A DNA stretch of 32,263 bases from a virus, in the IMG/VR virus record IMGVR_UViG_3300046461_000092, positions 1 through 32,263 of that record. One strand, 5' to 3'. Of the stretch, positions 2,189 through 25,104 are shown piece by piece; positions within the stretch are counted from its first letter, which is position 1, and the number at the start of each line of letters is the position of its first letter. The position numbers and the translations under genes are program-made. The notes under the pieces were generated by a model. It was not told where the DNA came from. It saw only the letters and a program-made list of their open reading frames with translations, and did not search any database.

Positions 2189-4191
2189 GGCGGCGTAACA
2201 GGGGAGGCCGAAAGATTAATCTGCATAGGAACATTAAGCGGAGTCGTCACCACAGGAACATCGGCACTGAGATTGATGCTTCCGGCCGGCACAAGCTCAA
2301 GGTGAAATTTGTCGGTCTCGGCGTTCGTAAAGTAAGTCCTCGTGCCGCCGCCGGCCAGGTCGTCACTTCCAGTTTGAACTGTCGTTATGCCCGTCTGCCA
2401 CTCAGCTGCGACGACACATTCGGCCGCTGTTAACGCGCTGATGCCGGCGACCGCGTAGGGATTGATGGTATATCCTATATCGCTGGCGGCAGGCACTCCA
2501 GCTAAGCCGGGAATAATCGAGATGCTGTTTGTAATTTGATAATAAGTGTCGATGTAGTTGTCGATGTAGACGTTGGTGGTGCTTACCACTTCGACAACCG
2601 TGTCTGGAGTGCTGCCTGTTGGAACAATACCAACGGCCGGCATGATCTCGAACGTTCCGGTAGCAATCTCGCCATCGAAGCCAAAGCTGTAGCTGGTGAT
2701 TTTGCCTTCTACGAATCCGCCTGGAAGACGATAATCATTGACGCGAGCGCTCTTGCGAAGCGAAAGCTCAAGGGCCTTTTCGAACTGCACGGTGCCGCTG
2801 CATCTTGTAGCGCGTGACGCTTTCCTAATGGCGGCCCGGCCTACGGCCACCAAATAGCCAATAGCATAAGCGCCGCGATCGGTGAGGGCAAAGGCGTCCG
2901 ACGAGCTGTCGAGCGGAGGAGTGTCGCCACCACCGGCCGGATTGCCTGCGTCAGCATCGCTCGTCAAATCCTGAGTCGAAAGCTCGATTGTCTGAGTCAC
3001 TACGGTTGGGTCTGGCAGAATGACGATAGGTTGAAGATTAGGCGTGATAGTAAATGTCATAGTCTCCGCTGCCTTGGCGCCAGTGCCGCCGATGCTCAAC
3101 GAGAGACCGTAGTCAATCCTCCAGTTCGGGATCATGATCACGTTATAGCTAACGTGCATGGGGATTGCAGCCTGATCCCCCATTGTAGCGTCATCGATGC
3201 TGGCGTACGGGTCATAAGTCGAATAGCCGCCGCCCTCTTCTAATTGGTAAGCAACAAATGAAGAAGCCGGCACTAAGCCGGTCTGAGTTTTAACATTCGA
3301 GATGAAGCTGTGACCGCCTGCCGGGAATAACGTGTAACTCAGCGATGACGACATGACATCGCCGACGGTATGCGTCTTCGCACGATTCTCATAGGACCAT
3401 GTCTTTTGAACCGGCTGCTGAACGCCGATGTTCAGAACGTCGGTGCAAAAACCATTCGTGACGACATAGCCGCCGCCTATCGTGTCGCCCGTCTTCGGCC
3501 ACGAAGAAACGAGCGACTGACCGTTGAGAACCGCTTTCGATCCATTAGCATTAGGAACCTCGAACCCAACACCAGCACCAGCCACCTGCGTCCAGTTAGC
3601 GTGAGCAATCATCGTGACGCTGGTTAACGGTGGATCTCCAGATGATCCGCAAGTCAAATTATCGTAAAGGATATCGTCGAGCGTTATATCAACACTGCCA
3701 TCTTCGCCGTAGAGAATGTCGGTGATCGACATGGCATGAGTGACGCGGTCAACAAAATAAAGCGCGCTCTGACATTCAAGAACCGCCATTGGATCTGACC
3801 GCTTGTCAGGATCGACCCAGACGGCATCATATGGGGGAAGAGCCCGAAGCTCGGCAGCAAGGGTAGCTAATTGTTGATCGTAAGATGACGGCTTAGCGAT
3901 GAACATCAGCTCGACGGTCTCGCCGATGATGTTCTGAGGGATCCCGGTCAAGCGACCGCGAAAAACCTCTATGGCATCTCCGCTCCCGGTTCCGTAGGAA
4001 ACCGACGCCCAGATCGCGCCGTTGAGCAGGCCCCGATACGGATTCTTAATGACGATATCGAGGTTGTCGCAATCGCCCTCGTTGCCAGTTACCTTCCAGG
4101 AAATGAACTCCTCGTCAACGCGGAATTGCGATCCGTCGAACACTTCGAACTCACCGGACAGCCAAGCGAAGCCAAACTGCTTGACTGCCAT
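2185..4191 (-). CDS. Probable tail hub or baseplate protein
   Basis: A 668-residue protein, beta-rich and without membrane segments. The N-terminal 55 residues describe a short beta domain (FGFAWLSGEFEVFDG ... NLDIVIKNPYRG). The segment around residues 445-515, with an Arg-rich helix followed by LPGGFVEGKITSYSFGFDG and a G-T-F-E motif, resembles the C-terminal part of siphophage tail hub/tail-tip proteins that follow the tape measure gene. It begins one base after the stop of the preceding small tail gene and its TGA overlaps the next ATG. The position two genes after the tape measure is that of the distal tail/hub proteins in siphophages. The family assignment is by context and general pattern, not by a diagnostic motif. 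Confidence 0.65.
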   Translation of the reverse strand: MAVKQFGFAWLSGEFEVFDGSQFRVDEEFISWKVTGNEGDCDNLDIVIKNPYRGLLNGAIWASVSYGTGSGDAIEVFRGRLTGIPQNIIGETVELMFIAKPSSYDQQLATLAAELRALPPYDAVWVDPDKRSDPMAVLECQSALYFVDRVTHAMSITDILYGEDGSVDITLDDILYDNLTCGSSGDPPLTSVTMIAHANWTQVAGAGVGFEVPNANGSKAVLNGQSLVSSWPKTGDTIGGGYVVTNGFCTDVLNIGVQQPVQKTWSYENRAKTHTVGDVMSSSLSYTLFPAGGHSFISNVKTQTGLVPASSFVAYQLEEGGGYSTYDPYASIDDATMGDQAAIPMHVSYNVIMIPNWRIDYGLSLSIGGTGAKAAETMTFTITPNLQPIVILPDPTVVTQTIELSTQDLTSDADAGNPAGGGDTPPLDSSSDAFALTDRGAYAIGYLVAVGRAAIRKASRATRCSGTVQFEKALELSLRKSARVNDYRLPGGFVEGKITSYSFGFDGEIATGTFEIMPAVGIVPTGSTPDTVVEVVSTTNVYIDNYIDTYYQITNSISIIPGLAGVPAASDIGYTINPYAVAGISALTAAECVVAAEWQTGITTVQTGSDDLAGGGTRTYFTNAETDKFHLELVPAGSINLSADVPVVTTPLNVPMQINLSASPVTPP

Positions 4192-4192
4192 T

Positions 4193-4561
4193 TCAAAGCT
4201 GCCTCATCGTCAGCGACCAGCTGCTAACGCACCCCCACTCGTCACGCGACACGGTCCAGGAGTCTACCAGCATGTCCATAGAGACGGCGACGCCGTTGCC
4301 CAGACCTATGTCTGGAACCGATAGCACGTGGACCGGAGTGCCTTGCCAGACGCCGGTAAAGTCAGGAGCCTGAACATCGTCACAGGTTACCGTCGCGGTG
4401 AACTTTCGCATTTGCGTCGCAGTGAGATCGAGGAGCCTTCCGCTAGAGGCGCGTTGGAGCCCATTGGTGTTCGGCTCCGGCGCCAAGTCCATCGTAATAC
4501 CGCGCACGGAATAATCGCCCATCGGTATGCCGGTGATCTGGAGGAGAGTGTAGGTCGGCAT
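4193..4561 (-). CDS. Small distal-tail protein downstream of the tape measure
   Basis: A 122-residue protein. I chose the ATG at 4561 (MPTYTLLQITG) because it lies 4 bases after the TAA of the tape measure gene. The frame is open further upstream, but those codons read as tape-measure sequence in another frame. The protein looks like an all-beta fold with paired Cys and Trp near the C-terminus (W-G-C-V-S-S-W-S-L-T). Genes at this place in siphophages usually encode a distal tail or tail-tip adaptor. No family is recognised with confidence. Confidence 0.6.
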   Translation of the reverse strand: MPTYTLLQITGIPMGDYSVRGITMDLAPEPNTNGLQRASSGRLLDLTATQMRKFTATVTCDDVQAPDFTGVWQGTPVHVLSVPDIGLGNGVAVSMDMLVDSWTVSRDEWGCVSSWSLTMRQL

Positions 4562-4565
4562 TTGG

Positions 4566-6863
4566 TTAATACCAGGATGGCTTACGACCGGTAGACAGGA
4601 GGCGAGACTTGACGGCGTGCTTTCGCAAAGCGCTGGCCACGTCCTCGCTGGCATTCATAGCAAAAGACTGACCGTCGAGATGAAGATGAATCGGCTGCGA
4701 GGAGCTCACCGCTCCGCCCTCGGCGAATTGCGGCAGCGGTCCGGCCGCTAGCGCGCTCCTGAGACCATTGACGAGCCCGCCGAACTCGAAACGCTGTCCG
4801 AAGCCGCGCGGCAATTTCAATTGCCTGATCGCTTCCATAAACTCGACGCCATAATGCGCCACAACGCCTGCAGGCTGGACAAATTCGCCGCTCGATAACC
4901 GCGCCAGAATGCTGTCGCTGGTGGCCGAGCCAGGCCCGGTGACAAAGCCGCCGCGGGCGAAGCCGGCAGTGCCGGGCGTGAAACCCGGAGGCGTTATGTT
5001 GAGCTGTTGGCTGAAAATAGCTTGGACCTGACTCCAAATTGATTGGGCTGTTCCCACCAGCCCCTGTACGGCGCTTTCGAACGAACTAGAAATGCTGCTG
5101 AAATTGACAGGTGCAGCAAAAATTTGCTGCACGCTGGTCCACTGCGTCTCCGCCGTCTGTGGCAAAGTGCTCGTGGCCTGCTGGAATGCATTGGTTATAC
5201 CGCTGAAATCGGGCGGCTTTAATGAACTAAAGGCCGCGTCAATGCGCTGCTGCGCCGTCTGACCCAAATCACTGAAGGCCGCGTCAATGCGCTGCTGGGC
5301 GCTCTGACCGAAATTGGTCCCAAAATCGAGGCCGCCCTGGCCTCCTGTCTTTTTGAGCTGTTCGATTGCGTTCTGTATGATCTGAATAAGTTGATCGACG
5401 GCGGTTTGTATTTCCGAGGCGCTTGGCAGAAAGCCGCCCGGCCCGGTAATTCCGCCAACTTTCGGCGGTCCGGCAAATGCCGCGTCCAGACTTTTCTGCG
5501 CCGTTTGGACCTGTGTTACGGCAGCATCCAGCCCCGGCTTCATCGCCGGCGCGATCTGGCTGGCTGCCTGTCCGGCGGCGAGCGGCGCCTTGGTGAAGCT
5601 ATCGCCAAGCCCATCGCCAACGGTTTTAAATTTTGCGCCTGCTGTGGCTGCGGCGTCGCCGACCTGCTTGAAATTGTCAGGGAGCTTTGCCGTGGCCTGC
5701 GCGGCTGCCGCAGTCACGCCGGTTATCTTATTGAGGAAATCAACGAAAGCTTTAACGCCGGGAATATTATTAGCCGCCGCGTCGAGTTGTTTAATGAATT
5801 GTAGAAAGCTGTTGATCTGGTCGATTGAATCCTTAATGCCCTTGCGAATAGCGGCGAGTTGATCGATGAGAAATTGACTGAAGGTCGTTCCTGAAAGACC
5901 TTTAAATGCATTCTGCAGATCATTGACCAATCCCTGAAACTCGTCCTTGAAACTTTTGACGGCGCTGGTGTCGAAAGCCTTTTGCGCTTGCGGAGTGAAC
6001 TGGGCGAGACCTTGAACAACCTTGAGAATGTTCGGCGGCGCCAGGGCAATTTCTGCCCTGAATTGCTCTGCGCTCACCGTGCCCTTGCCGAGCGCAGTAG
6101 CAAGCAAACTTACGGCTCCGGCGTCCATTTCTTTGAGCGCATCGGCGGTCAGCTTGCCGCCGTTCTGCAGCGTGCTGAAAAATGCCGCAGCTGCCTTTTG
6201 CGCCTCTTCGTGCGTCGCTCCACCGGCGCGGATGATCTTGAACAAATTCTCAACCGCGGCAGCGGTGTCGTTGATGTTGCCAGCGATGCCTTTCGGCAGA
6301 TCGATTCCCTGCAGGGCAACGAATTTCACCGTGCTGCCGGTCTGCACGAACCTTTGGATTGCCGTGGTCGCAGCCTCGAATGCCGGCGCCAGGCCAGTGA
6401 CCGTGGTGTCGAGATCGGCCGCGCCTTGCTTGAGCGCGGCGAAGGCCTGGGCGCCCAAATCCTTCGAGCCGAAAAGGCCGGATAATTTTGCCTGCGTCCG
6501 CGCCGCGGCTTCCTCGGCATTGGCAAACGAGGCCACGAGCACGCCGCCGACCGCAGTCGCCAAGACGCCAACGCCTGCGGAGGCCAGCCGGGCGAAGCCG
6601 GCAAAATTTCCGAGTTCGATGCCGGCGGCTGCCAAAATGGGATGTAGAACGTGGATAGCTTCCGAAAAGCCGGCCGTCGCCTCTTTGGCGCTGTTGGCCG
6701 CCGGAGCAGCGGCCGCAAGACTCGTGGTGAATTGTTGCAACGGCGCCTGGTCGCCGATGCCCTGCAAGCTGCTGACCAGCGCCTCGCCCGACTTCTGAAC
6801 GTCGGCCAACTGCGATTTGATGGCGTCGGTGCCTTCCAGCGTGATCAGGATTTTGACGGCCAT
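4566..6863 (-). CDS. Tail tape measure protein
   Basis: A 765-residue protein, long, Ala/Gln-rich and mostly helical, as tape measure proteins are. Residues about 84-115 form a hydrophobic Gly/Ala/Val stretch like the membrane-active segment of many tape measures. The region around residues 631-676 (ARGGFVTGPGSATSDS then LSSGEFV ... FMEAIR) is the characteristic C-terminal motif of tape measure proteins of this group. A 15-residue unit is repeated in tandem near residues 515-545. It starts with ATG immediately after the TAG of the upstream gene. Its length would set a fairly short tail, on the order of 110-120 nm at about 1.5 Angstrom per residue. That rule is general knowledge, not measured here. 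Confidence 0.92.
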   Translation of the reverse strand: MAVKILITLEGTDAIKSQLADVQKSGEALVSSLQGIGDQAPLQQFTTSLAAAAPAANSAKEATAGFSEAIHVLHPILAAAGIELGNFAGFARLASAGVGVLATAVGGVLVASFANAEEAAARTQAKLSGLFGSKDLGAQAFAALKQGAADLDTTVTGLAPAFEAATTAIQRFVQTGSTVKFVALQGIDLPKGIAGNINDTAAAVENLFKIIRAGGATHEEAQKAAAAFFSTLQNGGKLTADALKEMDAGAVSLLATALGKGTVSAEQFRAEIALAPPNILKVVQGLAQFTPQAQKAFDTSAVKSFKDEFQGLVNDLQNAFKGLSGTTFSQFLIDQLAAIRKGIKDSIDQINSFLQFIKQLDAAANNIPGVKAFVDFLNKITGVTAAAAQATAKLPDNFKQVGDAAATAGAKFKTVGDGLGDSFTKAPLAAGQAASQIAPAMKPGLDAAVTQVQTAQKSLDAAFAGPPKVGGITGPGGFLPSASEIQTAVDQLIQIIQNAIEQLKKTGGQGGLDFGTNFGQSAQQRIDAAFSDLGQTAQQRIDAAFSSLKPPDFSGITNAFQQATSTLPQTAETQWTSVQQIFAAPVNFSSISSSFESAVQGLVGTAQSIWSQVQAIFSQQLNITPPGFTPGTAGFARGGFVTGPGSATSDSILARLSSGEFVQPAGVVAHYGVEFMEAIRQLKLPRGFGQRFEFGGLVNGLRSALAAGPLPQFAEGGAVSSSQPIHLHLDGQSFAMNASEDVASALRKHAVKSRLLSTGRKPSWY
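5230..5319. repeat. Two tandem 45-bp units inside the tape measure gene
   Basis: The 23 bases starting at 5230 recur exactly at 5275, and the following bases are also very similar, giving a 45-bp period. In the protein this is a duplicated 15-residue unit (AQQRIDAAFSDLGQT type). In-frame unit duplication is a known route by which tape measure length changes. Confidence 0.85.
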
Positions 6864-7505
6864 CTAGGGAGTCTCGTTTTGGATATAGAGGCCTTGCATC
6901 GCCTCGGTGGCGCGCTCGACGGCGTCCTGCACATCGAAGCGCTTTTCGATCGTAACGGAAGGCACGCCGACGAACAGCGGGATCAGGGTGACGGCGCTGC
7001 CACCGAGTTGTCCGCGCCGCAATCGCGCCTTGGTGACAAAACGGCCGAACGGTTGCGGGTTGAGCGATCCTGTGACTGGCGCGCCGAGCAATGGAGTTTT
7101 GCCCGGACGTTTCATCGTTACCAAGGGCCCGACGGTTTCGATATATTTTCTCGGACTCATCTGCCGCGTCGCGTCACCGGGCCATAACGGCACTGTCGGC
7201 AGCGGCAACCACAACAGCGGGTTGCCAAAGATGTGCTTACCTTCAGTAAATACGTCCTCGAAATTGACTTGGCTGTGCAGCCAAACTTCGGGCAGCAACG
7301 TGTTACCGGAGGCCGGAAAATTTTTGGCTCGCATTTCCCATTTGCGGCTGGCAAAACCCGCGGCGTGAATATTATTATTTGCTGCGTCAGCTGCCCTTTT
7401 GCCGACCGCTCGCATAGAAGCCGTGAGGCCTTTGGCCATCGTGCTCTCGGCTTCATTAGTCGCTTTGATGAACTGTCCGGAATCGGCCTTAAAGACAATT
7501 TTCAT
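6864..7505 (-). CDS. Minor tail protein upstream of the tape measure (DUF6441-like)
   Basis: A 213-residue protein beginning MKIVFKAD and containing an Ala/Asn-rich helix, then a Pro/Trp-rich centre (LLWLPLP, PLWPGD) and a C-terminal amphipathic helix (VQDAVERATEAMQ). The arrangement resembles DUF6441-type phage proteins often found just before tape measures. I am not certain of the family. The ATG overlaps the TGA of the chaperone extension frame (ATGA at 7505-7502), and the TAG touches the ATG of the tape measure. It could be a tail-initiation or tail-completion protein. Confidence 0.7.
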   Translation of the reverse strand: MKIVFKADSGQFIKATNEAESTMAKGLTASMRAVGKRAADAANNNIHAAGFASRKWEMRAKNFPASGNTLLPEVWLHSQVNFEDVFTEGKHIFGNPLLWLPLPTVPLWPGDATRQMSPRKYIETVGPLVTMKRPGKTPLLGAPVTGSLNPQPFGRFVTKARLRRGQLGGSAVTLIPLFVGVPSVTIEKRFDVQDAVERATEAMQGLYIQNETP

Positions 7506-7657
7506 TCGTCGTCAGCAGCCAAACGCTTGAGCGATTTTTCGATAGTGCGTTCGTTGGCGCGAAACGCGGTCACCATTTGCGCCAGCATCGATGCTCGCTC
7601 TGCGCGATACCGTCTGCCAGCCAAGTCGCAATATGCAAAGAATTGCCCGGGCGTCAT
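7502..7657 (-). CDS. Tail chaperone extension in the -1 frame (rcc01693-like)
   Basis: Read alone, an ATG at 7657 overlaps the TGA of the preceding chaperone gene (ATGA) and gives 51 residues (MTPGQFF ... LKRLAADDE) ending in an ATGA with the next gene. The frame is -1 relative to the upstream gene. It stays open well upstream, where it reads DFEFLVARGG and then EIWD directly before the ATG. W-x-M-T-P is the hallmark of rcc01693/Phage_TAC_6-like chaperones, so the Trp before the ATG argues that this domain is made as a frameshift extension, like lambda gpGT. Independent re-initiation at the ATG remains possible. Confidence 0.6.
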   Translation of the reverse strand: MTPGQFFAYCDLAGRRYRAERASMLAQMVTAFRANERTIEKSLKRLAADDE

Positions 7658-8163
7658 GTCCCAAATTTCTGCGGCTCGATGTCCGCCTCGGGCGACGAGG
7701 AATTCGAAGTCGGCTGCGATTGCATGCGATAAAGACGGTGTTTCATGCGTTCCAGTTTCGCCTCGCGGTCGCTCTGCTGCGGCGGTTCCATTATCTTGAA
7801 CGCGTCGTAAATCTTTTTGATTTTTTCGGCGAAAGGGCCGGCACCGCCGCCGAGCGTTGCCTTGACGATTGCGGCGATCAGATCGAGTTGGATGTCCATT
7901 GGCAGATCGGCCGCGGCTTGGCGCGCCTTCTCATCGTCCGGCATGCCATAACCGGCGGCGATGATGAGCGCCGCGGCTTGCGGCCCTTGACCGATAACGG
8001 CTTCCGCTGTCAGCCCGCCGCCGAGCAACCCGACCGCTGCCGGATAGTCTTTCAATAGATCGACGATAATGCGCAGCGGCAAGCCGCGCACTTTATGATC
8101 GACGCCGTTGATCGATACGATTTCGGTCGGCGGCGCAAGATCGAATAATCCCGCTGGTACCAT
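7654..8163 (-). CDS. Tail assembly chaperone (gpG-like)
   Basis: A 169-residue protein in the slot between the tail tube and tape measure genes, which is where siphophages encode the pre-tape-measure chaperone. It opens with a beta pair (TEIVSINGVDHKVRGL) followed by helices, as in GTA/HK97-like chaperones. The last 50 residues are hydrophilic and low in structure. An AGGA box lies 7 bases before the ATG at 8163. A canonically phased slippery heptamer (C CCT TTC) occurs about two thirds into the gene, and the -1 frame beyond it carries a second chaperone-like domain, so two products may be made. The chaperone probably coats the tape measure during tail assembly. Confidence 0.8.
   Translation of the reverse strand: MVPAGLFDLAPPTEIVSINGVDHKVRGLPLRIIVDLLKDYPAAVGLLGGGLTAEAVIGQGPQAAALIIAAGYGMPDDEKARQAAADLPMDIQLDLIAAIVKATLGGGAGPFAEKIKKIYDAFKIMEPPQQSDREAKLERMKHRLYRMQSQPTSNSSSPEADIEPQKFGT
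7831..7837 (-). promoter_or_regulatory. Candidate -1 ribosomal frameshift heptamer CCCTTTC
   Basis: On the minus strand the bases C CCT TTC lie in the X-XXY-YYZ phase of the chaperone frame (Gly-Pro-Phe codons). A -1 slip would re-pair fully as CCC TTT. It is the only heptamer of this form that I find between the middle of the gene and its stop. From here the -1 frame is open for about 110 codons to the TGA at 7502. No strong downstream pseudoknot was worked out. Confidence 0.4.
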
Positions 8164-8174
8164 GGCACGTCCTG

Positions 8175-8678
8175 CTATGCTGTCGGCTGCGCCTCAACGG
8201 TCCATACGCCATAGGAGCCGGCGTCGAGCAGCACTTCGGCATTGAGCGGTATGATTTGGAAATCGTCCGTGTCGGTGACGAGGCTCATATCGCCGCCTGG
8301 CTGCATTTGCACTTGGCCGGTGAACGTCATCAGGTTGCCAATCGCATTTGCGCCGGTGAATTCCAGCTTGCCCTTCAATTGCGTATTGGTCAGGCCGCCC
8401 ATGCTTGCGGTACCGGTCTCTGCCAATAAGAAAAGCGCCAAGTTGAACTCATTGATCTCGTCTAGGCTCATCTTGATGGTGGCATCCAATTGCGTGACGA
8501 CACTCAAATCCTTACTGCGGATTCCAGACATTGACTGGAAGTGATCTTTTTTGGTGACCGCCGGCGTATAGGTGAAATTAAAGCAATTGCCTAAGTGAGT
8601 CCGCGTTCCGCCGGTCGGTGTGAAATGCACGGATCCTTTCGGAATGGTGTAATTGCTGGTGCTGGGTGCGGTCGCCAT
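8175..8678 (-). CDS. Major tail tube protein
   Basis: A 167-residue protein with the start NYTIPKGSVHF and the L-G-N-C-x-x-F pattern typical of siphophage tail tube proteins. It is followed by alternating beta strands (TQLDATIKMSLDEINEFNLALFL), consistent with the tube/Hcp-like fold. A good AGGAG box precedes the ATG at 8678, suggesting strong translation of an abundant structural protein. It sits between the terminator gene and the tail chaperone gene, the standard order. About 600 bases of the neighbouring genes have weaker start signals. Confidence 0.85.
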   Translation of the reverse strand: MATAPSTSNYTIPKGSVHFTPTGGTRTHLGNCFNFTYTPAVTKKDHFQSMSGIRSKDLSVVTQLDATIKMSLDEINEFNLALFLLAETGTASMGGLTNTQLKGKLEFTGANAIGNLMTFTGQVQMQPGGDMSLVTDTDDFQIIPLNAEVLLDAGSYGVWTVEAQPTA

Positions 8679-8690
8679 TTGTCAGTTCTC

Positions 8691-9131
8691 CTATGGCAGG
8701 TCTGCGGGATCGAGGGGGTAAGAGAGCGAGAATAGTAATTGCATATCGCAGGCCATCAGGCTGCCTTGCGAAAGTTTGCCGTTGGCACCGTTGTATTGAA
8801 TGCGGCCGTTCGGCGTTGCCAGACTTCCGAGCTCGGCGTCGCCGAGGAGGGCGGGAAGGATTTTGGCGCGCAGGCCATTGGCGCCGCCGCCGACATCCTC
8901 GGGCTTAGCACTAAACCCGATGGCGATGATCGGCGCCATGTGGATGATGACCGGCTGCATCCCAAGGCCGCGCGAGGTGTCGGAGCGCGCCTCATCGCCG
9001 TCGATCAAAACCAGGCACGGCCTCGCCTGTTCTGGAATTTCGTCGACATTGCGGACCACGGTATTGACGCCACGGATGCTCGATAGGATGGAAAAAATCC
9101 GATTGAGGATCTGCTCGCGCCGGTCAGACAT
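8691..9131 (-). CDS. Tail terminator (tail completion) protein
   Basis: A 146-residue protein with the pattern RREQILNRIFSIL ... PCLVLIDGDE ... IIHMAPIIAIGF seen in tail terminator or completion proteins: an N-terminal helix, then a central beta sheet. It is encoded directly upstream of the tail tube gene, as expected for the ring that caps the tube and joins it to the head. I use the ATG at 9131 (MSDRREQ); another ATG two codons upstream (9137) would also work. Both overlap the end of the stopper gene. Confidence 0.7.
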   Translation of the reverse strand: MSDRREQILNRIFSILSSIRGVNTVVRNVDEIPEQARPCLVLIDGDEARSDTSRGLGMQPVIIHMAPIIAIGFSAKPEDVGGGANGLRAKILPALLGDAELGSLATPNGRIQYNGANGKLSQGSLMACDMQLLFSLSYPLDPADLP

Positions 9132-9477
9132 CCACATCGTCTTTCAGGAACAGACGCAATTCACCGTCATTGACGCCGACCGGCGACGGCACATGCTCGT
9201 AGCTTTTGATGCTCCATGTCTTGCCGTCCATGGTTAATTCGCCGCCGAGGATGTCGTCGATCGGCACGAGATTGGCGGTCAATAGTTCCGCCATTCGCAC
9301 CATCGCCGAAGGTTTGAACGCCTGGAACTCGACGCCAAATCCGGCGAACGGCGATGGCGCTGTTTTATTGACGATCGTGATCGCGATGCTGTCGCCGCCG
9401 GTCGTCGCCAGGGTCGCGGCCTGGCCGAACGTATCGTAAACCGGCGCATACATCAGCGCCTGATAATCGAGCAGCAT
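9124..9477 (-). CDS. Possible head-tail stopper protein (lambda FII-like)
   Basis: A 117-residue protein. The ATG at 9477 overlaps the upstream stop (TAATG), which decides this start over an upstream TTG at 9516. The arrangement resembles the lambda FII stopper/joining family: an N-terminal region with Y-A-P-V-Y-D-T-F-G, a middle P-S-A-M-V-R-M-A-E-L, then GGELTMDGKTWSIKS and a C-terminal G-x-L-x-L-x-L strand. Such proteins sit at the head-tail interface. The context before the tail terminator and tail tube genes supports this. The similarity is by pattern only. Confidence 0.55.
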   Translation of the reverse strand: MLLDYQALMYAPVYDTFGQAATLATTGGDSIAITIVNKTAPSPFAGFGVEFQAFKPSAMVRMAELLTANLVPIDDILGGELTMDGKTWSIKSYEHVPSPVGVNDGELRLFLKDDVDV

Positions 9478-9809
9478 TATTTTGTCCGGGTCTGCGCCGT
9501 GAATGGAAACTGCCAATGTGCGAAGCGCTCCGAATCTGTGTCGCTGCCATCGGCGTCGATATAGGCGGTGTATTTCGCCCCATTGGTGAATTCGAGGAAT
9601 CGTGACAGGCCGAGGACATAGTTGCCCTCGGAGCCGGGCAAGTAAGTCATGCTCTGCGGCCAGCTTGCGCCGGCCACTTCTACGCTACTGGCGTCCTTGA
9701 TGGTGACGGACACTATCGCATCGTTCAGGAACACGCCTTCGATTTCACTCTTGAGGCCGTTGACCTCTAGATTGTTGGTATTGCCGACAAAGGCGACGGA
9801 GGTAGCCAT
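9477..9809 (-). CDS. Small beta-rich neck or tail-region protein, unknown
   Basis: A 110-residue protein. The ATG at 9809 is favoured over an ATG two codons upstream (9815), because the AAGGA box ends 6 bases before 9809 but abuts the earlier ATG. It has short beta segments (SVTIKDAS, SMTYLPGSEGNYVLGL, YTAYIDADG) with Gly and Asp turns, suggesting an Ig-like or jelly-roll fold. No family is recognised. The TAATG overlap with the stopper gene and the overlap with the repeat-protein stop place it in the same transcript. Confidence 0.65.
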   Translation of the reverse strand: MATSVAFVGNTNNLEVNGLKSEIEGVFLNDAIVSVTIKDASSVEVAGASWPQSMTYLPGSEGNYVLGLSRFLEFTNGAKYTAYIDADGSDTDSERFAHWQFPFTAQTRTK

Positions 9810-12016
9810 CAGCATTCCTTAAGGTCGAGAGTTGCGGTCACGGCCGGCCCGATCTCAAGCGCCGCCAGCATTTCAGGCCCGACCGAGAGATCGGCGATCA
9901 CCGCGGCCCCGATCGATGGCGCGCCGCCGACCGATGCGCCTACCGTGACGTTGGCAACAACCGCAGGCCCGATCGTGATCGAGCCGCAAACGAGCCATTC
10001 GCGTTCCTTGCGTAGCCGCAGGATGCTGCGAAGCAGTTCGACGAATTGCGGCCAGGCGATGCTGATCAGCCGGCCGATCGATTTGCGGACGGTGACGGCC
10101 TCGCCCTGGACGAACGCGAGCACGCGATTAAGCGTCTTTCGCAGCGTCAATGCCTCCGCTTGCGCAAGGCTCAACGTTCTGCGTTGCACCCGCGACCGCG
10201 CCAGGCTCATGGCCTCGCCGCTCGTGATCGCGATGGTCCTCAGTAATGACCGGACGGCATTCAGCGTTACCGCTTCTGCCATCGCTACGCTGATGCGGTA
10301 GGCATTCCGGCGCGTCAGCGATAATGCTTGCGGCCAGGTCGGAGCGATCAAGTGCGCCATGGACCTGCGCAGCGTCACGGCCTCGGCCTGGAAGGCAGTA
10401 ATGGTCCGCGGCTTAGCGGCGAGCCGCGCCAGCGTAACCAATTCAGCGCTGGCGATATTGAGCGTTCGCAGCAACGCTCTCGAGGTGGTCAGTGTGACGA
10501 GCGACGGACTGGCGAACGTCAACCGTTTGGCGGTCCTGCTGACGAGCGACAGGAACTCGGCCAGCAGTACATTGATCTGATGGCGAATGGACCGGCGCAA
10601 GGTCACCGCTTGCGCTTGCGCAATGATCATGAAGCGCTGATTGCCACCGATCGGCGTCAGCGTCACCAATTGCGTCTGCAGCACGGCAATCAATTTCCGC
10701 AGCTGCCGACCAAGCGTTACGTTCTGCCCAGTCGAAACCAAAATCAGGCGGCGTATTTGCCTGAGCATGCTGACGGCCGACGCGATGCTGATCGCGATCA
10801 GCCTTCCGAGCGTTTTGACGGCAGTCAGCGTCACCGCCAACGGCGATGGAATGTTGATAGTGCGAGCAGTCGCACGCGCGAGCGAAACCGCCTGGCCGAT
10901 AGTAACCGCTATGATGCGGCCGGTCCGCCGCGCCAGCGTGACGAACTCACCGATGGTCACCGCAATCGCATGCACGATCGACCGCGCCACCGTGACTACC
11001 TGTGCCTGCGTGACCACGATGGTCTTGGCAAACTGCTGCGCGCCGGTAATGACGTTGCGGCCGAGCGTCACCAGTTCGCTAATGGCGACGGTGATCGTGC
11101 GCAATAATGTCTTAACGGTCGAGAGCGTGACCAGCTCGCCAATCGATACGGCGATCATCGCCGACTTGGCGGCCCGGCGCGCCAGCGTGACGAGCTCGGC
11201 AATCGCGACGGCGAGCGTCTTGCTGATCGCCCGGCCGAGCGTCACGATTTGCGCCTGCGCCAGATTGATGCTGCGCTGCGCCGCTTTTTTGCTCGCGAGC
11301 GTCACGAGTTCGGCCGATCCTAAGCTAATGGCGAGCCGGTGCAGCGCCGAACGGATCAGCGTCACCGCCTCGCCGATAGCGAGGATGATAGCGCGCACGA
11401 TGCTGCGCGTGAGACTGACGGACTGCGCGATCAACACGGCGACAATCTTGCCGATTCGTTTGATCGCTGTGACTAGGTGCGATTGCGACAACACAATCGA
11501 CACCGACAGCGCGAGCCGCCGGGCCAGCGTGACCAATTGCCCGCTGGTTATTGTTATAAGTCTGCTGAGCGCAAGTCGCCGCTGCAACGTAATCAATTGC
11601 GCACTGGCGACCGTGACACTCTTACCGAGACTTTTCAACCTCGCCAGCGTAACGTTGTGCTGGGTCGCTACTCCATAAAGCTCACCGACCAGTGAGGCAA
11701 TAGCACTTCCGGAAATATCCAATCCCTGCTGGATATTGAAGCCTTTGCCGCGGCCGCGGATCAATGTCAGGAGATGGCTTGCAGCGACCGCGATCAGCTT
11801 GCCGAGAACCTTCTTAATCGTTAGCGTGACCGTTTCTGCGCTGGGCGTTCCATATAGCGCGTATTGCACCAGTGCGAACAAAGTCCCGCTGACGTTCTGG
11901 GCACTGACGATCGTCGGCACCGAAACCGCATAGGTGGTGCTGAAGCTATCAGGGACCACCAGCCTGACGTTGTTCTGCGGACTCTCGCCTTGGTGAAGGA
12001 CAATCGTCACTGCCAC
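9809..12016 (-). CDS. Basic protein of about 29 short beta repeats, unknown function
   Basis: A 735-residue protein starting at a GTG (12016) shortly after the previous TAA. Residues about 1-118 form a non-repeating or degenerate head. Residues about 119-665 consist of about 29 units with the consensus (R/K)-x-I-x-V-x-x-A-E-x-V-T-L-x-R. Counting from one conserved Thr/Ser to the next, the spacing is 18 residues 14 times, 20 residues 13 times and 25 once; 19 never occurs. The C-terminus (residues about 678-730) has another triple pattern (IGPAVVANV, IGAAVIADL, IGPAVTATL). The protein is strongly basic, with 2-3 Arg/Lys per unit and no signal peptide. Steps of two residues keep strand faces in register, so a beta-solenoid or beta-stacked fibre is likely. 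The function is unknown; a virion fibre or surface-binding protein is my guess. Confidence 0.85.
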   Translation of the reverse strand: MAVTIVLHQGESPQNNVRLVVPDSFSTTYAVSVPTIVSAQNVSGTLFALVQYALYGTPSAETVTLTIKKVLGKLIAVAASHLLTLIRGRGKGFNIQQGLDISGSAIASLVGELYGVATQHNVTLARLKSLGKSVTVASAQLITLQRRLALSRLITITSGQLVTLARRLALSVSIVLSQSHLVTAIKRIGKIVAVLIAQSVSLTRSIVRAIILAIGEAVTLIRSALHRLAISLGSAELVTLASKKAAQRSINLAQAQIVTLGRAISKTLAVAIAELVTLARRAAKSAMIAVSIGELVTLSTVKTLLRTITVAISELVTLGRNVITGAQQFAKTIVVTQAQVVTVARSIVHAIAVTIGEFVTLARRTGRIIAVTIGQAVSLARATARTINIPSPLAVTLTAVKTLGRLIAISIASAVSMLRQIRRLILVSTGQNVTLGRQLRKLIAVLQTQLVTLTPIGGNQRFMIIAQAQAVTLRRSIRHQINVLLAEFLSLVSRTAKRLTFASPSLVTLTTSRALLRTLNIASAELVTLARLAAKPRTITAFQAEAVTLRRSMAHLIAPTWPQALSLTRRNAYRISVAMAEAVTLNAVRSLLRTIAITSGEAMSLARSRVQRRTLSLAQAEALTLRKTLNRVLAFVQGEAVTVRKSIGRLISIAWPQFVELLRSILRLRKEREWLVCGSITIGPAVVANVTVGASVGGAPSIGAAVIADLSVGPEMLAALEIGPAVTATLDLKEC
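10022..11662. repeat. Degenerate in-frame 54/60-bp protein repeats
   Basis: The DNA encodes about 29 diverged repeat units of 54 or 60 bp. Copies are not identical at DNA level, so this is an old, selected protein repeat rather than a recent tandem array. The same composition makes long spurious open frames on the opposite strand. Confidence 0.85.
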
Positions 12017-12019
12017 CGG

Positions 12020-12514
12020 TTACGTCCCGGTGAGTGACTGGATCGTGGTCCCTGCTGTCTCCGGCGAACCGGCAATATCAGCAACCGCAAAGCAATTCAC
12101 CGCGTTAGGATCACCGCAAGTGAAGCTGCCATCAGATGCACTGATTTGCGTATCGACCTGAAGTCCAGTCAAAGTATTGAATAGATCCACTGTTACGCCA
12201 GCTACTGGAACACCACTGGCATTAACCACGACGCCACTGATGATCTTGCGCACATGACAACCAGATGGCGGAAAATTCCATTCCCAGAATTGATGTGCCG
12301 AGTCGAGACTGAAGAAGCCATTGCCGCCGCCGCCCTGCTGAGGAAAACTACAACGGGTCCATACCACGTCGGTGTCCCGAAGGTTGTTTCCTTGGTGGCC
12401 GCGAGTTTCTGGCAGCGATTGGCGATAATCTGGAGGCTGCAGGCAATCTTCGTTTATGCCCCAATCTCCACGGCTAAATAATGCTAAGCCGCTTGATTTT
12501 ATCAGAGTGCTCAC
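12020..12514 (-). CDS. Protein with a CNA-B/carboxypeptidase-regulatory-like beta domain
   Basis: A 164-residue protein beginning with GTG in a GTGA overlap with the upstream stop (12514-12511). Residues about 1-85 are rich in Trp, Gly and polar residues. Residues about 90-155 carry the pattern ISGVVVNASGVPVAGVTVD ... T-D-T-Q-I-S-A-S-D-G-S-F-T, the typical signature of a carboxypeptidase-regulatory-like or CNA-B Ig-type domain (G-x-V-x-D-x-x-G-x-P-x-x-G-x-x-V ... T-D-x-x-G-x-F). Such domains occur in virion surface proteins and often serve in adhesion or as stalks. Two Cys pairs (CGD, NCF) may be structural. It precedes the repeat protein with a three-base gap, and the two might act together. 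Confidence 0.7.
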   Translation of the reverse strand: MSTLIKSSGLALFSRGDWGINEDCLQPPDYRQSLPETRGHQGNNLRDTDVVWTRCSFPQQGGGGNGFFSLDSAHQFWEWNFPPSGCHVRKIISGVVVNASGVPVAGVTVDLFNTLTGLQVDTQISASDGSFTCGDPNAVNCFAVADIAGSPETAGTTIQSLTGT

Positions 12515-13733: not shown

Positions 13734-14102
13734 TCAGGTGTATCCGCCTATGGGATAATGGCTGCCGGCAAAGATCGGTGCGCAGCCGACATCGGTGATG
13801 ATGCCGCCGATGTTGTTCTTCAACACATAAGGCGGACCATCGCGGTCCAAGGCAAAGGCCAGATTTGGATCGCTGGTCAATTGCGCATTTGGTTTTACCA
13901 CCGCGACAATGCAGAACCACCCAGCCAGATAAGTATGTGTGCCGTCGGTGTTATCTTGCGAAACGCGCCATGCTTGAACGCCAGGCAACACGTAATGGGT
14001 GTCCCAATGCCATACATTGTCGGCATCGTAGCGGCCAAGCCTGCCCGCCGCTGCGGTTATGGCATCGGCCTCCGTATTAAACTTCAAAAAATAATCGATC
14101 AT
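13734..14102 (-). CDS. Small phage protein next to a lectin-like fibre gene, unknown
   Basis: A 122-residue protein that overlaps the preceding lectin-like gene by ATGA (14102-14099). It opens with MIDYFLKFNTEADA, a pattern seen in small proteins that accompany phage fibre genes. The rest is a beta/alpha mix with Trp residues (WHWDTHY, AGWFC) and a Gly-rich C-terminus. A fibre accessory or chaperone role is possible. Confidence 0.65.
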   Translation of the reverse strand: MIDYFLKFNTEADAITAAAGRLGRYDADNVWHWDTHYVLPGVQAWRVSQDNTDGTHTYLAGWFCIVAVVKPNAQLTSDPNLAFALDRDGPPYVLKNNIGGIITDVGCAPIFAGSHYPIGGYT

Positions 14103-15388
14103 GGCGCGGTAAAGCCCTGCAATGTCGCGTCCGCCAATTTGCTATTGAATACGGTCAGACGTTCAAAGATACCGTTGAGAAAATTGGTTGAACCGCTTGA
14201 TCCCAAATGTTGCGTCGCCGACGGCGTTTGTGCGCTGGCATCAGTCGCCACCGTTCCGCCGTTGAGAACCAGGCTTCGGCCCGCGCCGCTCCATGCCAGA
14301 CCGATCTTATCACGAGAGGTCCGATTGGCAGCGTTCGCTGTGGCGAGAGTTGCGGTGATCGAAGCCAAGCCATGATTTGACGAATCAAACCCTATCAGAT
14401 TGGTGCCATTACTATCTACCAGATTAGCCGCAACGCTTGCTGCGCCCTCGTTGTTAACTTGCGCCACGATCGACGCTGTCGCATTGGCAATCAATGTCTG
14501 TGCGGCTCCAGTGATGGCGATATTATCCGCCGCCCGCGTCGCGCTGCTGGTCGTCGTCGGGATGTAGGAGGAAGCGAAGGATCCGGATTCTAACTGCGCG
14601 CCCCAAGCATAAACACCAGAAGACCCGTCACCGCTGTAACTGTTATTACCAGAAGCATCACAAAGATAGATGCGCGTGATTAAACTAAAAGAAGAACCGG
14701 GATTAGCTGTCCCAGTAAGGCTGACGCGCTTCCAGCCGTTTGCATAGTCCTCGATTGCGGCACTAACGTTGGTCCAGCTGCCGGCACCTAACGGACCCGC
14801 CGAAACTGTATTTGTAGTTAAATCAATCAACTTATTTGCGTCACCGGTAGTGCTGTCGGACATGTCGATGACGATTTTAGTTCGTCCGTTCGGCTTGATG
14901 AAATGACTGTAAGTAAAAGCCGTGGCGTTTGGTTGGCTTAAAATAGTGTCAACAAAATTATGTGTAGTCCCACCGGAACTCTCGGCAACCAGCGCGGCAG
15001 TCGTCGCGCCATTAGGGGCAGTCGTCGCGTTATCCGTTGGCGTCACAATACCGTTCCATTGAAAGTTTAGCCACGAGTTCATCACCTCGCTGTATTCGTG
15101 GAGGTTCGTCCGCGCATCCTCGACCAGCAAGCCCAGATCGGTGAGACGCAGAACGTTATTGGTAAACTGCGTCAAAACGCCGGCCGAAGTTTTGGCGTAG
15201 CCAGTGCTCGCACGCGTGCAGGAAAGATAATCGGTGACGGCAGCCAGTGACCGCTTCAACGCGGTTAGGCTGGAATCGTAATAGCGGCCGCTATCCAAAT
15301 CCAAGTCGATTGAAGCACCGGATAGCCACCACGGATTGATGAGGTTCAAACCAAGCCGGAATTGTTTCGTGCTGGTAAAAACGCCCAT
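14099..15388 (-). CDS. Lectin-like fibre or head-surface protein
   Basis: A 429-residue protein. The ATG at 15388 overlaps the TAA of the methyltransferase gene (TAATG), which sets this start. Residues about 57-96 carry the C-T-R-A-S-T-G-Y ... G-L-L-V-E-D-A-R-T-N-L pattern. Residues about 258-289 carry V-Y-A-W-G-A-Q-L-E ... A-S-S-Y-I-P-T-T ... T-R-A-A-D. These two blocks are typical of phage proteins with a concanavalin-like, carbohydrate-binding beta-sandwich. The C-terminal third looks like a second such sandwich (GLAWSGAGRSLVLNGG). The function is probably binding of a surface sugar. It follows a methyltransferase gene. Confidence 0.75.
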   Translation of the reverse strand: MGVFTSTKQFRLGLNLINPWWLSGASIDLDLDSGRYYDSSLTALKRSLAAVTDYLSCTRASTGYAKTSAGVLTQFTNNVLRLTDLGLLVEDARTNLHEYSEVMNSWLNFQWNGIVTPTDNATTAPNGATTAALVAESSGGTTHNFVDTILSQPNATAFTYSHFIKPNGRTKIVIDMSDSTTGDANKLIDLTTNTVSAGPLGAGSWTNVSAAIEDYANGWKRVSLTGTANPGSSFSLITRIYLCDASGNNSYSGDGSSGVYAWGAQLESGSFASSYIPTTTSSATRAADNIAITGAAQTLIANATASIVAQVNNEGAASVAANLVDSNGTNLIGFDSSNHGLASITATLATANAANRTSRDKIGLAWSGAGRSLVLNGGTVATDASAQTPSATQHLGSSGSTNFLNGIFERLTVFNSKLADATLQGFTAP

Positions 15389-16047
15389 TAGATTTTGCGA
15401 TAGACCGCCCAGAAAGTCTGGGTCGCCAGCCATTCGGGTGCTATTTCGGCACCCACGAGATGGCCGCGTTCAACGCACTCGAAACCTGCCGCGATGATCA
15501 TCTTGTCAACGTCCTTGCCGTCATCGAGCCAGCGACCATCATTGGTTGGCAGGGCACGCGAGAACAGATTATTGAGAATGAAAAGCACGCCGCCGCTTTT
15601 GAGCACGCGCTTGATATGATTGATATCGGCTTCGAGCTCAAGGCAATGCTGTAGCACCCAGATCGATAGCGCGGCATCAAAAGTTTCCGCGCCAAGCAGA
15701 TCGAGCATTTCCGGCGGCATCGCCAGGAAATCGCCGCTCTCGACGCATGACGCCGCCAGCCCGCGCATATTCGGACTGATATCGACTCCGACGACGCGGC
15801 ATTGCATCATCTCGATTAGCGGCCTTGCCATGCGACCGATGCCGCAGCCGAAATCGAACACCAGACTTTTCGGCTTTATATGCCGCGCCAATATTTCCAT
15901 CAGGAATGGCGCTTCGGTTTTCCAGCGGTGATGGCTCGATATACCGGCATCCGGCGTCAGGATGATTTGCACCGCATCGTCGACGGTTTCGACATTCAAA
16001 AACACGGACGGATCGTAGCTGACCTCTTTCAGGGCGGTGACTTTCAT
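15388..16047 (-). CDS. Class I SAM-dependent methyltransferase
   Basis: A 219-residue protein with SAM-binding motif I VFDFGCGIGRMA at residues about 63-74, motif II V-V-G-V-D-I-S at 85-91 and a later F-D-A-A-L-S-I-W-V-L-Q-H. This is the order and length usual for class I small-molecule or sugar methyltransferases. No DNA-recognition domain is visible. It is embedded between fibre-type genes rather than in a replication module, so a role in modifying a glycan or a virion protein is more likely than DNA methylation. The acceptor is unknown. The ATG lacks a convincing ribosome binding site. Confidence 0.85.
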   Translation of the reverse strand: MKVTALKEVSYDPSVFLNVETVDDAVQIILTPDAGISSHHRWKTEAPFLMEILARHIKPKSLVFDFGCGIGRMARPLIEMMQCRVVGVDISPNMRGLAASCVESGDFLAMPPEMLDLLGAETFDAALSIWVLQHCLELEADINHIKRVLKSGGVLFILNNLFSRALPTNDGRWLDDGKDVDKMIIAAGFECVERGHLVGAEIAPEWLATQTFWAVYRKI

Positions 16048-16079: not shown

Positions 16080-16760
16080 TTATGTTAGCTGATCTTTCCA
16101 AGTGAAGAGTATAGAATCGCTGTTATTCAGCGCGATGCCGGCGAAATCTGCATGCGCGAACATCGAGCCGCCCTTAGCTGTCGTGTTAGCGTAGGTCGCG
16201 CTCTGACCACCGAGCGCCGCGTTAGTGTTGGCAAGGCCGTCGGCACCTGATGTTGCTGTTGCGCCGATAGGATGCGCGGCGGAAGTCGATAACAATTGGC
16301 CGCGCACCACTGTCAGGGTGGCAGTACCCTGGCCGGCGGTGACGAGCTCCACCTCGTTTTCGACCTGGATGTAGAAATTGCCGGATGCCGGTCCGATGGT
16401 GGCACCGAGCGTGATCGTTGTCGCGGCAGCGGCTTGAGACGACGTTGCGATCGTCGAGGTCGACGCCGCGGTCGTCGTGTCGAACAGTCCGGCTTCGGTG
16501 ATCGTTTTCGCGTTGGTCGCCGTGATCGTGCCGGTGACCTGATAAGTATCGGCGAGGGCCGAGGTCGAAACCAGCGACGACGTGCCGGCGACCCGTGCCT
16601 CGGTCTGCGGTCCGAATAAAGCGACATCTGGATTGGCCGAGGCCGTGGTGGCGCCGCTGCCCCAGCCAATATTTTTCGGTTCTGTGGGTGAACCCGCGGC
16701 TTTGACGAATGCCCAGATCAACGATCTGCCGGCATAGGTGGCGGTGGCGGCGTTAGCCAT
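16080..16760 (-). CDS. Beta-rich virion protein, unknown family
   Basis: A 226-residue protein extremely rich in Ala, Thr and Ser (SQAAAATTITLGATIGPAS), mostly beta strands with an apparent central N-F-Y-I-Q-V strand and a W-G-S-G motif near the N-terminus. A GGAG box precedes the ATG at 16760. Composition and context suggest a virion fibre, decoration or head-surface protein. It has many Ser/Thr residues and lies directly after a glycosyltransferase gene, so it would be a plausible O-glycosylation target, but nothing in the sequence proves that. Confidence 0.7.
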   Translation of the reverse strand: MANAATATYAGRSLIWAFVKAAGSPTEPKNIGWGSGATTASANPDVALFGPQTEARVAGTSSLVSTSALADTYQVTGTITATNAKTITEAGLFDTTTAASTSTIATSSQAAAATTITLGATIGPASGNFYIQVENEVELVTAGQGTATLTVVRGQLLSTSAAHPIGATATSGADGLANTNAALGGQSATYANTTAKGGSMFAHADFAGIALNNSDSILFTWKDQLT

Positions 16761-18156
16761 TTGCGATCTCCGATGCTTCAGGGACGAGGTTTTTCAGATT
16801 GCGGCGCGCATCAACAATATCAATCAGTTCATCACGCGCGGTGCCGACAACGCCATTCCAGTCGTCGGTTGTCGTCTGCCGGAACAGCCGCAGCGATGGA
16901 TACCAGGGGCTGTCGGATCGATCGCGCAGCCAGACCCAATACGGGCTTTTGCAAAGTAGCACCCAAGCATTGATGCCGAGCGCGCCTGCCAGATGCGCGA
17001 TTGAGGTGCAGCAAGTGACAACTAAGTCCATCTGCATCAGCGCGGTGGCGGCAACCGTCAGCCCGCGGTCTTTCAATTGCGGGCCGAGATCGCAGATGAT
17101 GTCGTCGGCACCGAGCCGCGCGATATCGGCTTGGCCTGGGCCAGCCTGAAGGCTGTAGAGCCAGACATTCGGATGCTCGGCCAGCGTCAGTAAGAGTTCA
17201 AGCGGGATCGAGCGCTCGTCGTTGCGCTCCTGCGCCGGATTGCCAGTCCAACAAATGCCGACCTTAAATGGATCAGGCCCGAGCGGCTTGGGCACTGCGG
17301 CCGGCCCAATGCGCATTTGAACCGCAGTGCGAGCTCGGATGAGGCCGGGATCTGGCGGCAAGGTTTCGAGCGTGCATTTGGCATGGAACGGCAAACTTCC
17401 GGTAACGACACTAAAATCGCATTTCGGAATTGGCACGCCCTCGGGAACGAATTCCAAAATGCCTCGCAGTTGGAATTCCCATAGCAGGACCATCAATTCG
17501 TGAGCGCAACACAGATAGATCTTGCCACCAAACACCGTCGGCCCGACCTGCTGCTTCAGCCATATCAGCCACCGCGAGAACATGATGGTGTCGCCGATGC
17601 CCTGCTCAATGCAGCAGAATATCTTTTTCCCTTTTATGTCCTCGCCCTGCCAATAGGGCGCCGGAAATTTGGGATAGAGCTCCTTGCCCTCGGATTTGCG
17701 AAACGGGATACGGAGCTCGTATTCTTCCCAGCCACGCGCATAGTCGCCGAGCGATAGCCGCATCATCGAGCGGCACCATTTAACGTTCAGATAACCCGGA
17801 TCGGCAGCGAGCGCCTTGGCAAAGCATTCCTCGGCCTCGTCAAAGCGGCCGAGGCTTTCGCACACCAGCCCTTTGTTGTGAAACGCCTTATGAAACTCTG
17901 GGCCAATCCGCAACGCACGATCGATGCACGCCATTGCCTCGTCATACTTCCGCGCCGCCCAGAAATAGGTCGCCAGATTGCTCCATAGCTCTTTCGATCT
18001 TGGCGATACAGCGACCGCGCGCTTGCCTTCAATAATTGCCGTCACCAGATGTCGCTTGGCGCCGCGCGCCAAGGCAATCTGATTCAGTTCACTGACAGCT
18101 TCGTGGACGGGCCGAAACTGTTTGCCTCCTTTCGTCGGCAGCTTAATGATGCTCAT
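16753..18156 (-). CDS. TPR glycosyltransferase (GT9/GT41-like)
   Basis: A 467-residue protein. Residues about 44-145 form TPR units (LWSNLATYFWAARKYDEAM, AFHNKGLVCESLGRFDEAE). The C-terminal part has E-Q-G-I-G-D-T-I-M-F-S-R at 184-195, V-G-I-C-W-T-G-N-P near 299-307, D-L-V-V-T-C-C-T-S-I-A-H-L-A-G-A-L-G near 377-394 and W-V-W-L-R-D-R-S-D-S-P-W-Y-P near 407-420. This set marks the TPR plus glycosyltransferase family common in Alphaproteobacteria, related to O-GlcNAc-transferase-like enzymes. It probably transfers a sugar from a nucleotide donor to a protein or glycan. The ATG overlaps the upstream gene (ATGA). In this phage context it may modify a virion protein or a host glycan. Confidence 0.85.
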   Translation of the reverse strand: MSIIKLPTKGGKQFRPVHEAVSELNQIALARGAKRHLVTAIIEGKRAVAVSPRSKELWSNLATYFWAARKYDEAMACIDRALRIGPEFHKAFHNKGLVCESLGRFDEAEECFAKALAADPGYLNVKWCRSMMRLSLGDYARGWEEYELRIPFRKSEGKELYPKFPAPYWQGEDIKGKKIFCCIEQGIGDTIMFSRWLIWLKQQVGPTVFGGKIYLCCAHELMVLLWEFQLRGILEFVPEGVPIPKCDFSVVTGSLPFHAKCTLETLPPDPGLIRARTAVQMRIGPAAVPKPLGPDPFKVGICWTGNPAQERNDERSIPLELLLTLAEHPNVWLYSLQAGPGQADIARLGADDIICDLGPQLKDRGLTVAATALMQMDLVVTCCTSIAHLAGALGINAWVLLCKSPYWVWLRDRSDSPWYPSLRLFRQTTTDDWNGVVGTARDELIDIVDARRNLKNLVPEASEIANG

Positions 18157-19761: not shown

Positions 19762-20261
19762 TACGTGCTCCTGCTGAGCTTTCGAAGCTCCCGCTTAGCA
19801 AGCTCGGCGACTGGTCCAAACAACTTCCGCCGCATGGTCTCGCGACGTTCGAGCATCAACGGCTTGACGACCTTCGGATCACGCTGGTTGTCGGCGTAGC
19901 ATTCACCGACGGCACCCTCCATCGCGCCGCGGATCGCTAACTTGACTTCCGGCCAACGCGACCCGACGGCGATGCCAACGCTGTCCGCAACCCATGGATA
20001 TTCACGCGCGGCTTGCTTCTTGTATTTGTCCGGAAGATCGGAACGCAGACCGCGCTCGACCAGCCAGTAATGCGAATAAGCGCGCAGCTTCAAGGGTAGC
20101 GTCACTGCGCGCGTGCGCGCATGATGCAGCACGACTAGCGCTTCCGCATCGGTTGCTGGCGCTGGCGCCAATGGCGCGATGTGATGCCAGAGATTTCGCA
20201 TGCCGGCGACGTCAACCTCGGCCAGGCAGCGGCGCATTTCGGCAGAATGTTGTTCGAACAT
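19761..20261 (-). CDS. Helical soluble protein of unknown function
   Basis: A 166-residue, helix-rich basic protein (WHHIAPLAPAPATDAEALVVLHHARTRAV, then KYKKQAAREYPWVADSVG). It has no membrane helix or known catalytic motif. It lies in a TGATG overlap with the upstream gene and a TAATG overlap with the downstream one, so it is made in the same transcript as virion proteins. Many Arg and Lys residues occur at the C-terminus. It could be an assembly factor. Confidence 0.6.
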   Translation of the reverse strand: MFEQHSAEMRRCLAEVDVAGMRNLWHHIAPLAPAPATDAEALVVLHHARTRAVTLPLKLRAYSHYWLVERGLRSDLPDKYKKQAAREYPWVADSVGIAVGSRWPEVKLAIRGAMEGAVGECYADNQRDPKVVKPLMLERRETMRRKLFGPVAELAKRELRKLSRST

Positions 20262-25090: not shown

Positions 25091-25104
25091 TGTGTTGTGA
25101 AGGA

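Follow-up and report, generated by a model that had tools for sequence, protein, structure and literature searches.

A family of basic phage repeat proteins with units spaced by 18 or 20 residues, probably surface fibres, encoded beside head-tail connector genes

The window analysed here comprises positions 1 to 32,263 of the IMG/VR virus record IMGVR_UViG_3300046461_000092. The gene of interest encodes a long repeat protein, and its surroundings are listed in Table 1, together with the related proteins discussed below. The open reading frame originally predicted at this place is real, but the gene is on the minus strand, with a GTG start codon at 12016 and a stop that ends at 9809. Plus-strand reading frames that overlap it (for example 10641-11678) are rejected as artefacts, because it is the minus frame that has homologues and synteny.

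Table 1 Features of the window and repeat proteins at related loci. P numbers denote proteins and L numbers the loci that carry them; coordinates of slot proteins and of P0006 refer to their own loci.
Feature	Position	Strand	Description
Tape measure	4566-6863
Major tail protein	8175-8678		Strong match
Tail terminator	8691-9137		Weak match
Head closure/stopper-like protein	9124-9516	-	Weak: Phage_attach E 0.012, phrog_82 E 0.013
Small protein	9477-9815	-	At the position of the relatives' Ig-like/BppU_N-like gene; assigned by position, not sequence similarity
VTL-repeat protein	9809-12016	-	735 residues; 29 regular units; homologues P0002-P0006
C-terminal tail	9812-10000	-	Residues 673-735; short L-x-V/I-G-P-like repeats; proposed virion anchor; low AlphaFold confidence
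Repeat array	10001-11686	-	Residues 111-672
Irregular 25-residue interval	10991-11068	-	Core 317 to core 342, ...VITGAQQFAKTI...
N-terminal segment	11687-12016	-	Residues 1-110; no homologue found
Small CarboxypepD_reg (CNA-B-like) protein	12020-12514	-	Stop 3 bases ahead of the repeat gene start
Tail protein	14099-15433		phrog_5939; within the insert
Methyltransferase	15388-16047	-	Same module as L009, 45% identity
TPR protein	16753-18156	-	Same module as L010, 66% identity
Head protein	20261-20695		phrog_240; within the insert
Head-tail adaptor	24177-24836	-	phrog_442 E 5e-22
Collagen-like gene	25105-25968
P0002	L004/L005		1404 residues
P0003	L006		1239 residues
P0004	L007		1265 residues
P0005	L009/L010		1423 residues
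P0006	L011, 2802-7061		1419 residues
L019 slot protein	5281-6990	+	Gly/Ala-rich AAGVG repeats
L027 slot protein	2348-5656		DxDxFYxP/PPLLxSExxxYDPxV-type units, 22/23/24 residues
L029 slot protein	3251-5285		DxDxFYxP/PPLLxSExxxYDPxV-type units, 22/23/24 residues
L031 slot protein	3202-5622		W-rich units, about 32 residues

The repeat gene lies just before the neck genes, as was originally predicted, the head closure and terminator genes being recognised by weak matches and the major tail protein by a strong one. On the other side is a small gene that had been described as CNA-B-like; the adjacency stands, while the domain call is weak, the CarboxypepD_reg match (E 4.7e-6) being below the Pfam cut-off. 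The stopper-like gene and the head-tail adaptor bracket about 14.7 kb (9.5-24.2 kb), which hold, besides the repeat gene itself, a TPR protein, methyltransferases and a number of genes that resemble fibre or head genes. The nearest terminases are those of phages of Roseibium and Agrobacterium; in the isolates Labrenzia phage V1 and Agrobacterium phage Rivra, which carry such terminases, the adaptor adjoins the stopper or joining gene, and the genes between 9.5 and 24.2 kb in the window are therefore an insert in the connector region. A methyltransferase and a TPR protein upstream of the repeat gene are common to the window and to L009/L010; the TPR protein may be a sugar transferase.

Three other reading frames of the window, all on the minus strand, are worth recording. 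Downstream of the collagen-like gene, a 96-residue frame (24821-25111) contains 39 residues that match residues 224-262 of the portal at 62% identity (E 6e-11, pairwise), and by this resemblance is a partial copy of the portal. In a 753-residue frame (27573-29834) the head maturation protease (phrog_80) and the major capsid protein (phrog_617/phrog_10) appear fused. The protein at 1192-1890 has a CBM_5_12-like domain (E 3e-5, just below the Pfam cut-off) and is possibly a carbohydrate-binding part of the tail tip.

The repeats of the window protein were located with an unsupervised, iterative detector that permitted any spacing from 13 to 32 residues. It found 29 units, with a core Thr or Ser at residues 123, 143, 163, 183, 201, 219 and so on to 660. 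The 28 intervals comprise 14 of 18 residues, 13 of 20, one of 25 and none of 19, in exact agreement with the original count. Residue autocorrelation, a check of the spacing that uses no motif, peaks at lag 18 (0.20) and lag 20 (0.23) and is at background at lag 19 (0.07), and even lags exceed odd lags at nearly all distances. Were odd and even intervals equally likely, 27 or more even ones out of 28 would have p = 1e-7, a figure to be read with the reservation that the units are not independent. The repeat region is strongly basic, as had been claimed for the unit, with 77 K+R against 17 D+E.

The mean identity between units in the window is only 33% in protein and 45% in DNA, and the even spacing was therefore not left by recent tandem duplication. 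Tandem Repeats Finder reported no array at this gene. Judged from this divergence, the repeats are old, and the even spacing has outlasted most of the unit sequence.

The unit consensus, R-x-I-x-V-x-x-[AG]-[EQ]-x-V-T-L-x-R, has the form of a single alternating β segment. Counted from the core Thr, the odd positions are R(-11), I(-9), V(-7), E/Q(-3), V(-1), L(+1) and R(+3), and the even positions are T(-10), T/S(-8), S/A(-6), G/A(-4), T(0) and A/T(+2). One face of the unit is thus hydrophobic, with E/Q and R, and the other small and polar. Most two-residue gaps in the alignments fall between R(+3) and the following R(-11), and most units of odd length (21 or 25) contain a Gly/Pro or polar loop. 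An extended linker would need steps of two residues to hold the faces in phase, which would account for the quantised spacing.

Five distinct relatives, with about 30-60 units in 1239-1423 residues, were found in viral contigs of IMG/VR. Alignments of repeat chunks were needed to find them; the window protein and its small neighbour, each used as a single query against IMG/VR, gave no match. The contigs are presumed to come from soil on the basis of sample numbers and relatives, not of metadata. The window protein aligns with P0006 by BLASTP at 35% identity over 622 columns (E 4e-65), values that are inflated by the repeats. When the six proteins are pooled, 74 intervals measure 18 residues, 150 measure 20, none 19, four 21, one 23, two 24 and six 25, with additional longer gaps wherever a unit goes unrecognised. 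A fixed, untrained regular expression run on the same six gave 50 of 18, 111 of 20 and again none of 19. The homologues thus keep the 18/20 spacing, and the 19-residue units that the original prediction held to be incompatible with a β fibre do not occur among them.

The 25-residue interval is found in five of the six (the window protein P0001, P0002, P0004, P0005, where it occurs twice, and P0006). It is one conserved special unit, with the motif [SP]GxxQ[YF]T[KQ]xI in most of the proteins and a variant in P0006. The last 14 intervals of P0002 and P0004 follow in identical order, without gaps, at 42% sequence identity, which implies that the 18-versus-20 state of a unit is itself inherited. 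Some units of P0006 are nearly identical (up to 94%), indicating a recent expansion, unlike the old array of the window. In most relatives a glycine-rich domain precedes the repeats, and a sub-threshold match to Gly_rich_2 is seen at the N-termini of P0003 and P0006.

In L004, L006, L007, L009 and L011 the repeat gene directly precedes a small Ig-like gene and the adaptor, and the stopper, terminator, tail protein and tape measure follow, these names being given by position and resemblance. The Ig-like protein of L006 and L011 matches phrog_1084. The gene order of the window is the same in position, but the anchor tail and the gene at the Ig-like position are only loosely like those of the relatives. 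We define the VTL-repeat family by units with a VTL core, spacing of 18 or 20 and never 19 residues, and a slot before Ig-like and adaptor genes. The window protein has these features, the Ig-like neighbour by position only, and is a member of this undescribed repeat family.

The original prediction knew of no characterised relative, and this still holds for Pfam, PHROGs, NCBIfam, PDB and BFVD. Searches of Pfam, PHROGs, NCBIfam and PDB sequences gave nothing usable for the window protein, and in PHROGs neither it nor its relatives had a match below E 0.009. In INPHARED (50,697 phage records) the window protein had only chance-level matches, to minor tail proteins of mycobacteriophages (E 4-6), and a consensus repeat query had low-similarity matches in three phages, the best (E 6e-10) to a protein of Curvibacter phage P26059A annotated as an acyltransferase. 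A broad alignment contained no stretch usable as a pattern. In 84,980 genomes of bacteria and archaea, two pattern scans of limited sensitivity found no relative, and hence no sequenced host or prophage; nor did an isolate with the protein come to light. Literature searches found no description of a phage repeat protein of this family.

A more distant resemblance is seen in phage C48C1 (L022), whose protein WJE88074.1 matches P0006 at E 7e-5, a similarity that may be compositional. It too has repeat autocorrelation at even lags only, and its gene lies near one for a tail fibre and one for a tail assembly chaperone; it differs in its 12-residue TRxRTSTYDGTY units and in belonging to a Kyanoviridae genome. 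This is a giant protein (3206-9332; 3347 codons by the record coordinates).

Structure predictions were obtained with AlphaFold2. For residues 111-324 (11 units), with 18 chunk rows in the alignment, the model is all-β (pLDDT 79, pTM 0.74); each unit forms a single strand of about 12 residues, 4-8 residues link one strand to the next, and there is no notable helix. The full-length model is poor (pLDDT 62, pTM 0.50), with the same strands present; in it the strands continue across the linkers of 18-residue units (173-220, 350-389), and the C-terminal tail has a pLDDT of about 30. These models give good support to the β structure originally proposed. They show none of the α-helical packing that would have spoken against it. 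A transmembrane β-barrel was also set aside, because the number of units ranges from about 30 to 60.

Foldseek with the AlphaFold model gave no significant match (best E 0.13 in PDB and 0.039 in BFVD). The sub-significant PDB matches are mostly to parallel solenoids, namely LpxD, GlmU, tapirin, HxuA, SufBCD, LRR proteins and CsgA, with both left-handed β-helix enzymes and right-handed helices represented, at TM-scores near 0.2, and are a hint, not proof, of parallel stacking. Covariation between neighbouring units did not separate parallel from antiparallel stacking. A parallel solenoid topology is moderately supported.

The left-handed β-helix proteins are comparable in having about 18 residues per coil, and LpxD, LpxA and GlmU are the commonest of the weak Foldseek matches. 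However, the VTL protein lacks the hexapeptide pattern ([LIV]-G-x4), no match is better than E 0.13 at a TM-score of about 0.2, and in the VTL family 20-residue coils are about twice as frequent as those of 18. Pfam gave no match, and the structural search none of significance.

As a comparison of principle, the bacterial amyloid curli is the best studied. The curlin repeats of CsgA average 23 residues, in a strand-arc-strand arrangement with a Q-x10-Q motif (PMC10192328). By analogy, both proteins would have tandem units with hydrophobic residues pointing inward, together with Q/N in CsgA or E/Q in VTL, and polar residues pointing outward, and 8c50_A is among the weak Foldseek matches. The VTL units differ in length and sequence, being of 18 or 20 residues with one long strand, a T/S/A outer face and R at both ends, and are encoded in a phage connector neighbourhood. 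There was no Pfam or PDB sequence match to the curlin repeat, and the two have no sequence relation.

Many viral fibre shafts are trimers, and a homotrimeric shaft of the triple β-spiral or triple β-helix type, as in adenovirus fibre or reovirus sigma-1, has to be weighed against a single-chain solenoid. Here three chains would be wound together, each unit being strand-turn-strand with the turn at [AGP]-[EQ]. Position -4 is indeed mostly G, A, S or P and position -3 usually E or Q, with alternating hydrophobic residues on either side, and in the thinly covered parts of the full-length model the unit consists of two short strands, interrupted for two residues at [AGP]-[EQ]. However, with a proper alignment AlphaFold gives one unbroken 12-residue strand per unit, albeit in a monomer prediction that is blind to trimers, and the loops of triple β-spiral repeats vary freely in length, whereas the VTL units are quantised. 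On balance we regard a trimer as unlikely.

A survey of the slot, starting from the Ig-like and adaptor genes of the relatives, showed that in L019, L027, L029 and L031 it is occupied by unrelated repeat proteins. The L019 protein has features in common with the VTL family. Its detected intervals are all even (14-26, mostly 16/18/20), with autocorrelation strong at 18, 20, 36 and 40 but depleted at odd lags, and it shares the tail type (LRAWEL...L.A); it is unlike the family in being Gly/Ala-rich, without a VTL core and neutral. The spacing of 22/23/24 in L027 and L029 means that parity is not a property of the slot as a whole, an idea that was therefore rejected. These two also serve as negative controls, in that the analysis does not generate parity everywhere. 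The L029 repeats are split across two overlapping frames, perhaps by a frameshift.

A tail of the form LRAWE(P/L)xxxL is common to P0002 (as LKAWEP), P0004 and L019, and the bodies of the other slot proteins end in short L-x-G/A repeats. The charge is -75 in L027, -1 in L019 and +57 in the window protein, and every one of the six family members is basic, with values of +55 to +88. These differences fit an exchangeable surface part, and together with the likeness of the tails they form the pattern that a surface shaft exchanged on a conserved anchor should show.

On the basis of these observations, we hypothesise, with slightly better than even confidence, that the VTL-repeat protein forms the shaft of an exchangeable fibre on the virion, at or near the neck, anchored by its C-terminus and folded as a basic β-solenoid. 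It is probably a surface fibre; for the neck, the argument comes from gene position and exchange at the slot. Tail fibres can be encoded anywhere, and a connector-gene neighbourhood is no proof of a neck location. The protein might instead have a structural or adhesive role on the surface of the tail or head, for example as a side fibre or head fibre that happens to be encoded beside the connector genes, and the phrog_5939 and phrog_240 genes in the same insert and the collagen-like gene would agree with this. However, in all the relatives its gene has the Ig-like and adaptor genes as neighbours, and the repeat protein is exchanged at that one place, which makes such a location improbable. An internal protein, DNA-facing or ejected, whose charge serves DNA binding or membrane passage, would suit the basic character of all six family members but is very hard to reconcile with the acidic and neutral proteins that related phages carry in this slot and with the glycine-rich, outer-domain-like N-termini of most relatives.

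Appendages at the neck are known from other phages, among them the T4 whiskers, phi29 gp12, the lactococcal neck passage structure and the XM1 collar spikes (PMC10491603, PMC6669499). They resemble the proposed fibre in place and role, as optional, variable adhesive parts at the head-tail connection, but have no sequence relation to the VTL protein, whose proposed role is read from gene position.

In the proposed neck fibre, the units would stack as coils of a parallel β-solenoid, with I, V, V and L of each coil alternating inward and T/S/A outward. The 18-residue coil would be the basic turn. The 20-residue coil would gain one inward/outward pair of residues in the linker, so that the faces keep phase, while an odd insertion would flip the linker. 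The short C-terminal L-x-G/A tail would fix the fibre to the virion, with the neighbouring Ig-like protein as a possible attachment point, and the N-terminal end, glycine-rich in most relatives, would face outward. The length of the fibre would be set by the number of units. A basic shaft would help a soil phage to cling to cell surfaces or matrix that carry negative charge, ahead of specific adsorption.

More tentatively, and with doubts that outweigh our confidence, we suggest that this is an undescribed type of β-solenoid, whose coil length changes only by two residues, serving as a replaceable phage neck-fibre shaft. Like cartridges on an anchor, repeat shafts of different chemistry (basic VTL, neutral AAGVG and acidic DxDxFYxP) would be interchanged among related soil phages on similar C-terminal tails. 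If this is true, coil-length parity would be a signature, readable from sequence, of β-repeat fibres to which profile libraries are blind, and a means of searching for such fibres in viral dark matter. At the slot, soil phages would then be trading one long surface shaft for another of different chemistry, a matter relevant to how they adhere in soil.
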